Assembly (NCBI GenBank): GCA_902778925.1
Contig: CACYZN010000008.1
Coordinates: forward strand, 49,230 to 113,229
Length of the DNA stretch: 64,000 bases
Reading direction: 5' to 3'
Origin: an uncultured Bacteroidota bacterium
GTDB lineage: Bacteria; Bacteroidota; Bacteroidia; Bacteroidales; P3
The notes beneath the pieces were generated by a model. It was not told the origin of the DNA, made no database searches, and saw only the letters and a list, made by a program, of their open reading frames with translations. A program made the position numbers and the translations under genes. Below are positions 5,696 through 58,527 of the stretch, in pieces (within the stretch, counting starts at the first letter, position 1; each line of letters starts with the position of its first letter).

Positions 5696-5886
5696 GCTCC
5701 ATAAACGCTACGCTTGCCCTTTTATTGTGTCCTCGCCAACCTATTTTACTCCCCTCGTTCGCTTTTGCCCCAGCAGGGTGAAAGAGGTATACCTCCGTCC
5801 ATCTGGCCCCTTGCCCCCATTCCCAGTCACTTACTCCCCGCTTTCCACTCTCTTCAACCTGTTCCCCTCCTGCTCCTGTAGGGTAT

Positions 5887-5975
5887 TTCTTATGTACTTC
5901 TTATGTATTTCTTATGTATTTCTTATGTTTTAAACATAAATACAACATAAGAAATACATAAGAAGTACATAAGAA
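5887..5975. repeat. Palindromic 11-mer repeat element, copy A
   Basis: The left arm has four TTCTTATG units spaced 11 bp apart. The right arm mirrors them as CATAAGAA units, around the centre TTTTAAACATAAATACAAC. The flanks are pyrimidine-rich on the left and purine-rich on the right. It lies in the 352-base gap between the epimerase start and the DPP III terminator, where I see nothing else. Related copies lie near 15.9, 33.5, 44.6, 51.6 and 58.5 kb. Confidence 0.92.
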
Positions 5976-6047
5976 ATAGGCTAGGGGAGCCGGAGCGGAA
6001 GAGGGGAGAAATGGGAATGGAGAGGTGTGGGATGCGCGTGGTGATGG

Positions 6048-15731: not shown

Positions 15732-15902
15732 AATACGGCGGCAAAGATACTGAAAAAAATCCGACTGCCGAAAACAAGATTTTCGAAGATTTGCAATGGC
15801 TTATCGGACAGATTATTGCCGCACAGTCTTTCGACATCGGGCAGAAGAAAACGCCTTGCCGACATGCTCCCCGACCCTTCCCCAAGCCATCCCCTCCGGT
15901 AT

Positions 15903-15980
15903 TTCTTATGTACTTCTTATGTATTTCTTATGTATTTCTTATGTTTTAAACATAAATACAACATAAGAAATACATAAGAA
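15903..15980. repeat. Palindromic 11-mer repeat element, copy B
   Basis: It has the same orientation and centre as copy A, but the right arm has one fewer CATAAGAA unit (78 instead of 89 bp). It lies between the divergent kamB and Wza-like genes, about 65 bases before the -33 element of the latter. Confidence 0.92.
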
Positions 15981-33483: not shown

Positions 33484-33572
33484 TTCTTATGTACTTCTTA
33501 TGTATTTCTTATGTATTTCTTATGTTTTAAACATAAATACAACATAAGAAATACATAAGAAGTACATAAGAA
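33484..33572. repeat. Palindromic 11-mer repeat element, copy C (full)
   Basis: This is a full 89-bp copy identical in plan and orientation to copy A. It lies in the 650-base gap between two divergent genes. The gap also holds a half copy, a purine-rich direct repeat and a promoter. Confidence 0.93.
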
Positions 33573-33574
33573 CG

Positions 33575-33628
33575 CTTATGTTTTAAACATAAATACAACA
33601 TAAGAAATACATAAGAAGTACATAAGAA
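33575..33628. repeat. Palindromic 11-mer repeat element, copy C' (right half duplicated)
   Basis: A second centre plus complete right arm follows copy C immediately, as if about 56 bp had been tandemly duplicated. Confidence 0.9.
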
Positions 33629-33652
33629 CGACAGGAGGGGAAGGGGTTGGAT

Positions 33653-33709
33653 GTGAAAGGTGAGAGGTGGTAGGTGAGAGGTGAAAGGTGGTAGGTGAGA
33701 GGTGAAAGG
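33653..33709 (+). repeat. Degenerate GGTGAGAGGTGAAAGG direct repeat
   Basis: Three imperfect copies of GGTGAGAGGTGAAAGG, joined by GGTGGTA, follow one another at about 21-base spacing. The complementary sequence family appears again at 44455-44543. Confidence 0.75.
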
Positions 33710-41106: not shown

Positions 41107-42732
41107 TTATTCTTTAGACTTCATCTCGGCCAGCGCGCGCAGTAGCAGCTTGTCGGTCTTGAGGGTGGATACTATGCGGCCTTCGTCGTAGTAGTAGCGC
41201 GACAGTATCTCGCCTTTCAGCATCTCGCACACCTCGTCGCGGTACTTCTGCAGGTCGCCCTCTTTCTCCTCCTTCAAAGCGCTCTCCATGGAGGCCAGTT
41301 GGCTCGCTATGGCGGCATCGTAGTTCTCCTCTTTTGCGACTTCTCGCAGCTGGTTTATCACCCGTTCGGTGACGGTCGAGTAGGTGAGCTTTTTGTCCTT
41401 CAGGTAGCGGCAGAAGTCGGCATACAGTTCGTCGCTCACCTCGAACTCGTCGGCCGCGACAATGGTGTCGTGGCTGCGGTAGTAGTCGGTGGCGTAGTCG
41501 AACACAAGGAACTTCTGGGCCAGCGCTATGCCTAGGTTGGACATGTATTCCGGCTCGACCTCGATGTCGGGCTCGATGCCGAAGCCGTCGTACACCGTGC
41601 GGCCTCCCTTGGTCTTGAAGGCCGTCTTCAGCGAGTCGGGCACCTTCACGGCCCGGCCTTGCTCGTCGCGGTGGCTGTAGTCGATGGCCTGTATGCAACG
41701 TCCGCTGGGTATGTAGTATTTGCTCACGGTGACCTTCATCTGGCTGTTGTAGGCCATGGGCAGTATGTTTTGCACGAGGCCCTTGCCGTAGCTGCGTTGG
41801 CCCACGATGATGGCACGGTCGAGGTCTTGCAGGCTGCCGCTCACAATCTCGCTGGCCGATGCCGAGCCGCCGTCGATGAGCACCGCCAGTGGTATCTTGG
41901 TGTCTTCCGGCTGCAGGCGGGTATAGCTCTTGGTGTTTTTCGACGCCACCTTGCCTTTGGTCTCGACCACCAGGGTGCCGCGCGGTACCCAGATATTCAC
42001 TATGTCGACGGCCTCGTTCATCAGTCCGCCGCCGTTGCCGCGCAGGTCGAGCACCACCCCGCGCATGTTGGGCTTCTCTTTCTTCAGGCTGACGAAGGCT
42101 TCGCGCACGTGTTTGGCGGCGTCGGCCGTAAACTCGTCGAGCTTGATGTAGCCGTAGTCGTGCTGCTCGCCCACGAAGCCGTAGTAGGGTACGTTGGGCA
42201 GCTTTATCTCGCGGCGCTTCACCGTGCAGTCGAACTCGCGGCCAGCGCGTTCGAGGCGCAGCACCACGTCGGTGCCGGCCTGGCCGCGCATGGCCGAGCT
42301 CACGTCGGAGGTCTTTTTGCCCACGGTGCTCTGTCCGTCGACGGCCACGATGCGGTCGCCCGCCTTGATGCCGGCCTCGGCGGCAGGCAGCCCTTTGTAG
42401 GGCTCGCTAATGTATACCGAGTCGCCGCGCTGCACTATCATGGCGCCCACGCCGCCGTACTGCCCCAGCAGCTGCAGCTTCACGTCTTCCATCTGGCTCT
42501 CGGGGAAGTAGTTGGTGTAGGGGTCGAGCGATGCCAGCATGGCGTCGATGGCCACCTTGATGGTCTTGCCGGGGTCTACGTCGTCCACATAGTTTTGGTT
42601 TAGCGACTTGTACACGGCCGAAAATATCTCCAGGTTCTTGGCAATCTCAAATCCGCGGTCGGTCTGGGCGGTGGCGCGCGGTGCCGCCAGGGCTACCGTT
42701 GCCATCAGCCATATTGTCCATCTCCTTTTCAT
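41107..42732 (-). CDS. C-terminal processing serine protease (S41, CtpA)
   Basis: The 541-residue protein has a signal peptide, a PDZ domain at about 85-170 (GGVGAMIVQRGDSVYISEPY, GLPAAEAGIKAGDRIVAVDG) and the S41 catalytic domain with Ser in DGGSASASEIVSGS and Lys in RSYGKGLVQ. A helical C-terminal extension of about 150 residues follows. Tail-specific proteases cleave periplasmic proteins from their C-terminal end, including tmRNA-tagged ones in some species. The gene lies directly downstream of the tmRNA-derived repeat array on the same strand. Confidence 0.93.
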   Translation of the reverse strand: MKRRWTIWLMATVALAAPRATAQTDRGFEIAKNLEIFSAVYKSLNQNYVDDVDPGKTIKVAIDAMLASLDPYTNYFPESQMEDVKLQLLGQYGGVGAMIVQRGDSVYISEPYKGLPAAEAGIKAGDRIVAVDGQSTVGKKTSDVSSAMRGQAGTDVVLRLERAGREFDCTVKRREIKLPNVPYYGFVGEQHDYGYIKLDEFTADAAKHVREAFVSLKKEKPNMRGVVLDLRGNGGGLMNEAVDIVNIWVPRGTLVVETKGKVASKNTKSYTRLQPEDTKIPLAVLIDGGSASASEIVSGSLQDLDRAIIVGQRSYGKGLVQNILPMAYNSQMKVTVSKYYIPSGRCIQAIDYSHRDEQGRAVKVPDSLKTAFKTKGGRTVYDGFGIEPDIEVEPEYMSNLGIALAQKFLVFDYATDYYRSHDTIVAADEFEVSDELYADFCRYLKDKKLTYSTVTERVINQLREVAKEENYDAAIASQLASMESALKEEKEGDLQKYRDEVCEMLKGEILSRYYYDEGRIVSTLKTDKLLLRALAEMKSKE

Positions 42733-42810
42733 CGTTTGCTTATATATATCTTTTGTCCATTATAACAACGAACGGCACATATTATTGTGCCGTCCGATAA
42801 AAACTGTGTT

Positions 42811-43338
42811 CGGTGGAGCTGGGCGGAGTCGTGGCGTGCCGTCGGCTTGGCCGACAACCCCGTCCAAACAAGTGACGGATGTGCTTTCTGCATGCTTGTC
42901 CGCCGCCCTATAACAGGAAAGAGACCCGCGGTGAGCCTCTTTCGGTGGAGCTGGGCGGAGTCGTGGCGTGCCGTCGGCTTGGCCGACAACCCCGTCCAAA
43001 CAAGTGGCCGATGTGCTTTCTGCATGCTTATCCGCCACCCTATAACAGAAAAGATACCCGCGGTAGGCCTCTTTCGGTGGAGCTGGGCGGAGTCGTGGCG
43101 TGCCGTCGGCTTGGCCGACAACCCCGTCCAAACAAGTGACGGATGTGCTTTCTGCATGCTTATCCGCCACCCTATAACAGAAAAGAGACCCGCGGTGAGC
43201 CTCTTTCGGTGGAGCTGGGCGGAGTCGTGGTGTGCCGTCGGCTTGGCCGACAACCCCGTCCAAACAAGTGGCCGATGTGCTTCCTGCATGCTTGTCCGCC
43301 ACCCTATAACAGAAAAGAGACCCTCGGTGAGCCTCTTT
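42811..43338 (-). repeat. Tandem array of four degenerate tmRNA 3'-end copies, 132-bp period
   Basis: Four units start on the plus strand at 42811, 42943, 43075 and 43207, each exactly 132 bp after the last. The authentic tmRNA 3' end starts at 43339 in the same register. Read on the minus strand, each unit has the tmRNA-like GATAAGCATGCAGAAAGCAC, CACTTGTTTGGACGG, an insertion of about 28 bases with a GTCGGC/GCCGAC hairpin where the T-stem 5' half should be, then CGACTCCGCCCAGCTCCACC. Three of the four units, like the real tmRNA, are followed by a terminator-like hairpin (AAAGAGGCTC pairing with GGGTCTCTTT, then TTC). The array fills the gap between tmRNA and CtpA. Because 132 is a multiple of three, long reading frames exist on both strands but look fortuitous. 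Confidence 0.93.
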
Positions 43339-43734
43339 CGGTGGAGCTGGGCGGAGTCGAACCGCCGTCCAAACAAGTAACAGATGTGCTTTCTACATGC
43401 TTATCCGATGGTTGGTTGTAGGGGCGGCTCCGGACGTCGGCACCCAAGGCAGCCCTTAACCTCTGAAGGTTTCACCGGTGTGTAGAGGTGTCGTACCGGC
43501 TATCCCGTCTTTACCTGCACCTCCTGGTCAGCAGCCGACGGTCGGGGCGGCTGGGAGATGTCTCGTTCCTGCGCCTTGCGCGGGAATTAAGCCGAACTTA
43601 CTGTGCTTCGGTTAGGCAGCGAGAGCGTAGTTGTTTTCGCCAATTAATTTGTCGCGTCTGTTTTCAAGGCCTCTGGCGCGTCGGCCTGCATGCTTACAAA
43701 CCCATTATCCTTGCTGTCAAAACCAAGCAGCCCC
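43339..43734 (-). ncRNA. ssrA: Transfer-messenger RNA (tmRNA)
   Basis: The 5' end GGGGCTG pairs with CAGCTCC near the 3' end to close the tRNA-like domain, followed by discriminator A. The T-arm is GGCGG/CCGCC around TTCGACT. The tag frame at 43612-43641 reads GENNYALAA then TAA, the Bacteroidetes type. The sequence encodes CC but then G, so the last A of CCA must be added. tmRNA with SmpB rescues stalled ribosomes. I see no promoter box between it and tRNA-Asp. Confidence 0.96.
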
Positions 43735-43760
43735 AATATTGGGTGATAAGTTGATACGTT

Positions 43761-43786
43761 AAGAGCTCTCACTGCTGAGAGCTCTT
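43761..43786. other. Hairpin between tRNA-Asp and tmRNA
   Basis: A perfect 11-bp stem (AAGAGCTCTCA/TGAGAGCTCTT) with a 4-base loop. In the minus direction only two T follow, so it is a weak terminator or a processing site for a tRNA-Asp/tmRNA transcript. Confidence 0.7.
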
Positions 43787-43794
43787 TTCGTGTT

Positions 43795-43872
43795 TGGCGG
43801 TCCGGACGAGACTCGAACTCGCGACCCCATGCGTGACAGGCATGTATTCTAACCAAACTGAACTACCGGACC
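43795..43872 (-). tRNA. tRNA-Asp (GTC)
   Basis: On the minus strand the acceptor is GGTCCGG/CCGGACC, the anticodon loop CTGTCAC gives GTC, the T-loop is TTCGAGT, and CCA is encoded at 43795-43797. Confidence 0.97.
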
Positions 43873-43915
43873 GTTTCCAGGGTTCTGGAGGGCTTTCTTC
43901 TGTCGAAAGCGAGTG

Positions 43916-44554: not shown

Positions 44555-44643
44555 TTCTTATGTCGTTCTTATGTATATCTTATGTACTATTTATGTTTAA
44601 AACATAAGAAATACATAAGAAATACATAAGAAGTACATAAGAA
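44555..44643. repeat. Palindromic 11-mer repeat element, copy D (inverted orientation)
   Basis: The centre reads TATTTATGTTTAAAACATAAG, the reverse of copies A, B, C and E. Left arm units include TTCTTATGTCG and TATCTTATGTA; the right arm has ATACATAAGAA units. It lies in the 690-base region between tRNA-His and the riboswitch. Apart from the neighbouring pyrimidine repeat and promoter elements nothing else is seen there. Confidence 0.9.
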
Positions 44644-44857
44644 CTACCGGAGGGGAAGGGGAGGGGATGGCTGGGGGAGTTGGATTTCAGCGCGTTGCGA
44701 GGGTTGTAAAATCGGGCTTGGAGGGCCGGAATGTGCTGTTTTAACATAAATAAGGTTAAAACAGGGGCTGTGGAGGGGTGCCGCAGGGTGCTGCGGGGGC
44801 GGGGTGGGGGTGGGAAAGTATTTTTTGGCAGGAGTGGCGCGGAATGCTTTTTTTTAG

Positions 44858-44865: not shown

Positions 44866-44925
44866 CAGCGCAAAGCGGCGTGGGCCGGCTGGCGCAACGC
44901 ACTTTGCGATAGTTCATTGAACTGT

Positions 44926-45093
44926 TTTCATGTCGAGGTTCTGCCCTGTAATGGGGCAGCCAAGAGGGAATCGCGTGTGAATCGCGAGCTGTCGCGCAAC
45001 TGTAATTCTGCCATATCGCTTCGCCAGTTGACCATTGGGCCCATGGGGCCTGAGAAGGTGCGTTGTCGGTGCAGCCGAGCCAGGAGACCTGCC
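44926..45093 (+). promoter_or_regulatory. Cobalamin riboswitch aptamer
   Basis: The conserved core is nearly complete: CCAAGAGGGAATCGCGTGTG, then AATCGCGAGCTGTCGCGCAA followed by CTGTAA, a middle segment with GCCAGTTGACC and GAGAAGGTG, and the terminal B12 box GAGCCAGGAGACCTGCC at 45077-45093. Such aptamers bind adenosylcobalamin and usually lower expression of the downstream gene. The downstream gene here is an acyl-CoA transferase about 156 bases further on, not a B12 transport or synthesis gene. Confidence 0.93.
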
Positions 45094-45145
45094 TTGATGT
45101 GTTTTGTGGCAATGCTTTCGCGTTAAAGGTGGTTGTCTGAGGCTG

Positions 45146-51238: not shown

Positions 51239-51516
51239 ATAAAAAAAATCAATATAATGGAAATTATTTACAATTCGGTGACACCCAGCACTGTATGCCC
51301 TGCGTTGCCGTCGCCGCCGGCCCCTATGCCCCCGGCCGTCGACCCGATTGGCCCTCGCTATGCCCCCGTAGCCCCGCCATGCCACCCTCGAGGCCCACTC
51401 CCGCCCCCTTGCCGAGGCCTTAAGTCGCTTAAAATCACCATGTAGCAACCGCAGCAGGGTCGTTACCTGCTGATAATCAGTTCCTCAAGCCTTCCTCTCC
51501 GCTTCCCCTCCGGTAG

Positions 51517-51605
51517 TTCTTATGTACTTCTTATGTATTTCTTATGTATTTCTTATGTTTTAAACATAAATACGACATAAGAAATACATAAGAAGTACAT
51601 AAGAA
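51517..51605. repeat. Palindromic 11-mer repeat element, copy E
   Basis: An 89-bp copy in the orientation of copy A, with one change in the centre (TACGAC for TACAAC). Flanking GCCTTCC and GGAAGGC extend the pairing. It sits between divergent iorA and the antiporter gene in a 545-base gap where nothing else but the iorA -7 box is seen. Confidence 0.92.
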
Positions 51606-58353: not shown

Positions 58354-58440
58354 GCCTACAATAACGGACTCCTGCCCGAATTATTGCCGCCCTGCCCACC
58401 TTCCATCCTCACCCCCTCCCCACCGCTTCCGGTCCGGTCG

Positions 58441-58527
58441 TTCTTATGTCGTTCTTATGTATATCTTATGTTGTATTTATGTTTAAAACATAAGAAATAC
58501 ATAAGAAATACATAAGAACGACATAAG
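58441..58527. repeat. Palindromic 11-mer repeat element, copy F (inverted orientation)
   Basis: It has the orientation of copy D, with TTCTTATGTCG, TTCTTATGTA and TATCTTATG units on the left mirrored by ATACATAAGAA and CGACATAAG on the right. It lies in the 459-base gap between divergent genes, together with the palindrome at 58612. Confidence 0.9.

Follow-up and report, generated by a model that had tools for sequence, protein, structure and literature searches.

The window, by which we mean the whole 64,000-nucleotide stretch analysed here, belongs to a 54-contig draft genome of an uncultured Bacteroidales bacterium and contains an intact ssrA gene for tmRNA on its minus strand (Table 1). 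Directly behind ssrA, on the same strand, lie four contiguous units of 132 bp that hold no cargo between them, and a gene for a family-S41 peptidase is located downstream. A preliminary description had claimed such an array, and Tandem Repeats Finder detected it with a period of 132, 4.2 copies, 95% matches and a score of 1004 at 42809-43359, which confirms that the tandem array is real. The span originally assigned to the array, 42811-43410, includes the true 3' end of the gene, and the units themselves occupy 42809-43336. An assembly artefact, for which the draft state of the genome could be cited, is very improbable, because any two units differ at 3-8 positions (pairwise identity of 124-129/132) and arrays recur in other assemblies. 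Elsewhere in the window are a cobalamin riboswitch and arrays of an 11-bp unit (GTATTTCTTAT / ACATAAGAAAT), which occupy at least six places and frequently form inverted pairs.

Table 1. Features of the window, with positions counted from its first nucleotide
Feature	Position	Strand	Evidence or remark
ssrA (tmRNA)	43734-43340	minus	ARAGORN; Rfam RF00023, 134.1 bits; intact, tag GENNYALAA
Terminator-like hairpin directly 3' of ssrA, repeated behind units 1-3	43313-43339	minus	fold -13.2 kcal/mol; unflagged by consensus scan
Unit 1, 132 bp	43205-43336	minus	start in the chosen register lies inside the hairpin behind ssrA
Unit 2, 132 bp	43073-43204	minus	
Unit 3, 132 bp	42941-43072	minus	
Unit 4, 132 bp	42809-42940	minus	no hairpin of the repeated kind behind it
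24-bp palindromic element, T-loop of unit 1	43228-43251	minus	pattern match
24-bp element, unit 2	43096-43119	minus	pattern match
24-bp element, unit 3	42964-42987	minus	pattern match
24-bp element, unit 4	42832-42855	minus	pattern match
Copy of ssrA 3' end, CGACTCCGCCCAGCTCCAC, unit 1	43209-43227	minus	0 mismatches; identical in units 2-4
Terminator-like hairpin behind last unit	42769-42796	minus	consensus terminator scan
Arrays of 11-bp units	5883-5978, 15899-15944, 33484-33709, 44602-44647, 51513-51605, 58437-58527		7-bp arrays beside some
Cobalamin riboswitch	44919-45110	plus	

Architecture of the array

Each unit copies approximately 67 nt of the tmRNA 3' domain, from GGAYAAGCATG through CACC, and the 3' 19 nt of ssrA are identical in all four (19/19). 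As previously described, the acceptor strand and the ACC end are retained throughout, and the change that sets the units apart from the gene is common to all of them, which indicates that amplification started from a copy already altered. Although its 5' half had been described as replaced, the T-stem keeps this half, which reads GGACGGGGTT (the gene has GGACGGCGGTT, and one stem C is missing from the units). The insert instead lies in the T-loop, where 24 bp separate GTT from CGA (GTT^CGA), such that the T-arm reads GGACGGGGTT, 24 bp, CGACTCCGCC in the units and GGACGGCGGTTCGACTCCGCC in the gene. A further suggestion was that the units yield decoy RNAs, which would titrate tmRNA partners or processing enzymes. 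Such a role fits the conservation of acceptor strand and 3' end throughout the array; however, the window units lack the acceptor 5' strand, their T-loop is disrupted, and the identical design occurs behind tRNA-Arg(CCT), which leaves the decoy proposal without support and hardly credible. A match to permuted tmRNA that extends over the gene end and unit 1 scored 25.2 bits against a cut-off of 47, and we take it to be an echo of the repeat.

The hairpins that follow the gene and units 1-3 have 11 pairs each, except for 10 after unit 2, and folding energies of -8.3 to -15.3 kcal/mol. These hairpins had been noted together with a T-rich tail, but their T-run sits within the 3' strand of the stem, and the consensus terminator scan left all four unflagged. 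The only minus-strand flag, at 42796-42769, marks the hairpin behind unit 4, which differs from the repeated kind. With one hairpin after the gene and the flagged hairpin after the last unit, the array is bounded by the ssrA terminator on one side and by a second terminator-like site on the other.

A dispersed palindrome in the T-loop

Searches based on the units returned short matches at many sites in the genus, all of which share the 24 bp found in the T-loop. The consensus of this palindromic element is GTCGGC-NRA-GCCGAC-GGCAYACCA. With one mismatch allowed, the pattern occurs in 14/23 genomes of the genus and 0/14 others, and a reversed-pattern control gave 1 match in 37 genomes. Across the order, the pattern matched three of 344 genomes, namely the genome under study, one congener and one distant genome; the last is the sole match among 342 genomes outside the genus, and its loop and tail depart from the element. 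A scan of a genome collection for the exact element yielded at least 115 stretches, and the 80 matches listed all derive from uncultured Bacteroidales or Bacteroidetes; the database records of the genus are likewise Bacteroidales or Bacteroidetes, from gut and rumen. The exact pattern gave 0 stretches in viral contigs, and a phage origin was set aside on that account.

The element has a marked insertion site. Among 171 distinct contexts, drawn from the loci collected at that stage, the base preceding the element is T in 159, the base before that is T in 147, and C follows in 114. The CCA tail is present in 166 of these contexts, a count to be read together with the search pattern, which itself required CCA with up to 2 substitutions. 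Comparison with empty sites in related sequences revealed, among the matches listed, a clean 24-bp insertion with no target duplication and joints at GAGTT^CGG and AAGTT^CGCC in nifJ-like sequences and at GGGTT^C elsewhere. The T-loop sites have the same TT^C joint. At one locus (L066 and its kin, compared with L099), the occupied site has TT and the empty site AC, and the TT there may therefore have come with the element or arisen separately. Head-to-tail dimers were found, and the element also occurs inside 7-8-bp microsatellites, where arrays of element plus flank form. Judged from these comparisons, the core of the units is a dispersed, genus-restricted mobile palindrome with filled and empty sites that enters after TT.

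Several candidate explanations of the element were rejected or weakened. An intron of the T-arm was rejected because the identical 24 bp are also inserted outside RNA genes. A RAYT, although still a candidate mover, is weakened by the distribution of PF01797 (RAYT, Y1 transposase), which is present in 10 of the 14 element carriers and missing from four (G000, G008, G009 and G016; these are drafts and possibly incomplete), and by the distance between Y1 match and element on a shared contig, which is 13.5 kb for the nearest pair (by eye). Tolerance of the element in the reading frame of working proteins was also dismissed, since the nifJ-like carriers contain other insertions and stops, which suggests that they are probably pseudogene fragments. 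The fragments L067, L102, L174 and L177 have several different insertions, and in L067 and L174 one of these is another palindrome (GCAGAACTTYCAGTGRACGTTCTGC) beside the 24-bp element.

The element resembles the CGTC REPs and the Rickettsia repeats RPE-4 and RPE-6 in being a dispersed palindrome of 20-40 bp with a short CCA-type tail (PMC3733652). Unlike CGTC or GTAG REPs, it has no unpaired CGTC or GTAG tag at either end, and it further differs from REPs in its 6-bp stem, 3-nt loop, low copy number, restriction to a genus, strong TT^C site and T-loop insertions. No dedicated transposase is known for CGTC REPs, according to the available text of PMC3733652.

Related units behind ssrA and two tRNA genes

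The preliminary description had named recurrence in related genomes as a check, and such recurrence was found. A search for the ssrA 3' end matched at least 106 of 120 genomes of the genus. Of 93 distinct tmRNA calls, three were false (L244 first, L369, L391 first) and four lay outside the genus (L031, L033, L036, L037), which left 86 distinct genus loci. Extra 3' ends lie behind ssrA in 16 of these, within downstream DNA of up to 700 bp (less than 200 bp for L255, L366 and L370); the 16 remain from 18 direct-copy matches after exclusion of L367, which overlaps tRNA-His, and L372, a chance match. In every one of the 16, an insert separates the T-arm side from the extra 3' end, and none is an intact duplicate (0/16). 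Neither the ssrA 3'-end search nor the direct-copy search demanded an insert. L146 and L192 entered through the element search; L192 has the same 108-bp spacing as G091 in the insert-blind ssrA 3'-end search, and L146 lies at the position of the G137 match.

The 16 cases fall into two classes. In class A (11 cases), the insert lies at GTT^CGA or a similar site and consists of the 24-bp element in eight cases and of other sequences ending in CCA or CTA in L260, L263 and L264. Class B (L009, L013, L386, L397 and L403) has a longer common core, TTCCGCTCC...GGCGGAACGG, together with the gene's 3' end repeated in inverted orientation. Most of the inserts are hairpins; the insert of L263, taken by itself, does not form one. 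On the tmRNA tree, class B is confined to one part and accounts for 3 changes, and class A is spread over several parts and accounts for 10, which gives at least 13 changes in all and indicates that the trait is patchy. Such patchy presence does not suggest a vital function.

Units of the same build were found behind tRNA genes. For tRNA-Ala(CGC), a search pattern that demanded a broken T-loop identified units behind the gene in 12/120 genomes; the insert is masked in G066 and is another sequence in G096. In G096 (L315, L322), a tRNA-Ala pseudo 3' end also lies in the opposite orientation upstream of the tRNA pair, as if the segment between repeats had inverted. For tRNA-Arg(CCT), units are present in G033, G124, G015 and G099, and a unit that matches these lies at the start of a contig in G135; the corresponding pattern search returned mostly true genes at 2 mismatches and one unit only, in G124. 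Tandem unit pairs in the genus have periods of 103, 107, 108, 111 and 152 bp. By comparison of these loci, ssrA, tRNA-Ala(CGC) and tRNA-Arg(CCT) share a single design, in which each unit consists of a copy of the gene's 3' domain with a hairpin core in its T-loop, followed by the 3' end of the actual gene.

We also examined how the units fold. Ten of 13 tRNA-Ala units fold into a single rod, the exceptions being two units of G033 and the unit of G096. The outer stem of the rod involves the acceptor strand or the T-stem, the middle stem pairs an upstream arm with the tail of the element (GGTGC/GCACC, TGTGC/GCACA and GGTAT/ATACC), and the inner stem is the element hairpin. Stems were matched by script because MAFFT mis-set the middle stem. 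The observed arm-tail match was reached by 27 of 5000 reshufflings and exceeds the other 4973, for nine units, one per genome, that are not independent of each other; the test covered 9 of the 12 tRNA-Ala genomes and left out G015 (a fresh copy), G066 (masked) and G096 (other insert). Two processes could account for this match, namely selection acting on the fold and template switching, by which palindromes are perfected (PMC8794818). In the window, the left inverted arm is weak, as it is present in the folds of units 1 and 4 and absent from those of units 2 and 3. Across 27 units from several species, z-scores relative to shuffled sequence range from -0.1 to -5.4 and mostly lie above -3, which indicates that their advantage in folding is no more than modest.

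These results bear on a neutral origin, in which a REP-like selfish palindrome landed in a spare 3' end that was amplified by slippage or recombination, with arms perfected by template switching and no RNA function. Template switching can create and maintain hairpins (PMC8794818), and arrays of the element and its flank form in microsatellites, while the element also occupies probably dead nifJ-like fragments. The patchy distribution, the modest fold scores and the absence of a distinct left arm from units 2 and 3 of the window give this account substantial weight. However, 16/16 cases from insert-blind searches and three gene types follow one design, unrelated inserts take the identical position, and the arm-tail match of the nine non-independent tRNA-Ala units beats 4973/5000 reshufflings. 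On balance, we regard neutral debris as a serious but rather unlikely explanation.

A second alternative, also raised in the preliminary description, is that the array represents attachment sites. In this view, integrases acting at the ssrA T-loop would displace 3' ends, and each unit would be either an empty site or a used one. Dehalococcoides provides an example, with islands that enter ssrA in the middle of the T-loop and displace its 3' end, and the array shares with them a repeated ssrA 3' end and a joint in the T-loop (PMC3146451). Those islands, many with a serine recombinase module, lie between the repeats (PMC3146451), whereas the array consists of 132-bp units without cargo. In the genus, cargo between ssrA 3'-end repeats was observed in only a few relatives. 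In G080 (L254:62-7284), two near-identical units with the T-loop element flank a 7.2-kb region, in which two genes match ABC and ABC-2 transporter families; its remaining genes we take, by eye, to be of TetR, TolC and HlyD types. Beyond the 700-bp span, a variant of the insert, also of 24 bp, occurs 1.5 kb away in G065, and the 3' ends found in G011 and G113 are plain ones of attachment-site type. In two species, G065 and G113, ssrA 3' ends enclose an AAA_14/DUF4143 gene (L253:701-2041, L261:1116-2369). The phage-integrase match in G011 is weak, with an E value of 8e-6 that lies only just below the cut-off. The attachment-site reading retains some weight from the G080 units that flank ABC-exporter genes and is possible at these few loci. 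However, the joints in G011 and G113 are plain, whereas the units retain the 5' T-arm side and have an insert, and those of the window are contiguous and cargo-free; for the array itself, we consider attachment sites improbable.

Comparison with tRNA-linked repeats of Escherichia coli

The closest known system appears, on sequence anatomy, to be the tRNA-linked repeats (TLRs) of E. coli, which were first described in 1978 and, according to the available text of PMC8144298, had no known function before work on the rRNA-linked ones. Stenum et al. (2021) count 22 TLRs at ten E. coli loci (PMC8144298). In the K-12 genome, we found three 178-bp repeats behind tyrV, each closing with the last 19 nt of tRNA-Tyr. 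The Rfam model RtT has four matches at the tyrT/tyrV locus, one of them between tyrT and tyrV, and the repeated CCA coincides exactly with the end of the annotated rttR RNA. Across 10 tyr, arg and lys operon spacers there are 12 copies of 3' ends (up to 2 mismatches), 11 of which have, by eye, an inverted arm, a CGTTGC...GCAACG core and CCCGNAGGG; the lysQ copy departs in retaining the second core part only. A search for the E. coli core gave a median of 9 places per genome.

The likeness is considerable. TLRs (tyrT/rttR, which is RF00391 RtT, and rrA/rrB/rrF) and the array both consist of units directly behind a stable-RNA gene that end in its 3' end, and in the tRNA cases, as in the array, a hairpin core precedes a 3' end that resumes in the T-loop, which in E. 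coli occurs at (A/C)ATCC, approximately three bases further in. TLRs number one to five per locus and share 18-19 bp with the 3' end of the upstream gene; the array has four units, downstream and on the same strand, that share 19/19. The 5S rRNA-linked repeats are flanked by two terminators; read-through transcription and processing yield RNAs that bind Hfq and CsrA, with modest phenotypes, and an earlier claim on the tyrT repeat has since been withdrawn (PMC8144298). The array likewise stands between terminator-like sites.

The array also differs from TLRs in several respects. TLR hosts are tRNA or rRNA operons, whereas the host here is ssrA, with tRNA-Ala and tRNA-Arg in relatives; units 1-3 each have a terminator-like hairpin behind them; and the organism belongs to the Bacteroidales. 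The core sequences are unrelated, and that of the array is a mobile palindrome with dispersed copies. Derivation of the core from a repeat may nonetheless not set the two apart, because rttR is tabulated as REP-containing (PMC12306157). The RtT covariance model (RF00391) gave no match at E<=1 in window positions 42600-43900 and none in 41 genomes of the genus, and E. coli alone matched among 14 control genomes (stricter filters were used over 40 genomes), which indicates that the likeness is one of anatomy only. Given its ssrA host and an anatomy without RtT sequence, the array is a variant of the TLRs and not a member. Within the literature covered by our search, mostly papers outside subscription, we found no description of repeats of this kind from Bacteroidales or from an ssrA locus, and the parts of it available on E. 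coli TLRs give no account of their origin.

Taken together, these comparisons favor the reading that the array is a TLR-like satellite of ssrA in its anatomy, its likely origin, and its predicted read-through and processing, to which we assign a probability of roughly 0.6. Under this satellite reading, the 3' domain and terminator of ssrA would first have been duplicated, the palindrome would then have entered the T-loop of the spare copy, and unequal recombination would have generated four units. An insertion in the T-loop of the true ssrA should be lethal. A part of transcription would read through the ssrA terminator, and tRNA 3'-maturation enzymes would cut the tmRNA-type 3' ends of the units, which would release short structured RNAs in step with ssrA transcription. 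The earlier idea of alternative 3' ends for tmRNA comes close to this reading, with the difference that they would be the 3' ends of satellite RNAs, as in the TLRs of E. coli.

More tentatively, and with a good deal of doubt, 3'-end satellites of stable RNA genes might form a general bacterial class that arises repeatedly when a mobile palindrome enters a spare T-loop, such that a dead copy becomes a self-folding RNA that uses the promoter, terminator and 3' processing of its host, with the E. coli TLRs as an older case. The analysis describes a set of loci with the build of TLRs in a phylum distant from E. coli, at ssrA and two tRNA genes, together with a mobile palindrome of 24 bp whose TT^C site is sharp and for which no transposase is evident. 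Because empty sites allow the core to be followed as a mobile element, and the set lies in a distant phylum, the birth of such repeats becomes testable by comparison, and the loci of the genus represent natural insert swaps at one position. If such a general class exists, cells would carry growth-coupled small RNAs built from the ends of tmRNA and tRNAs.
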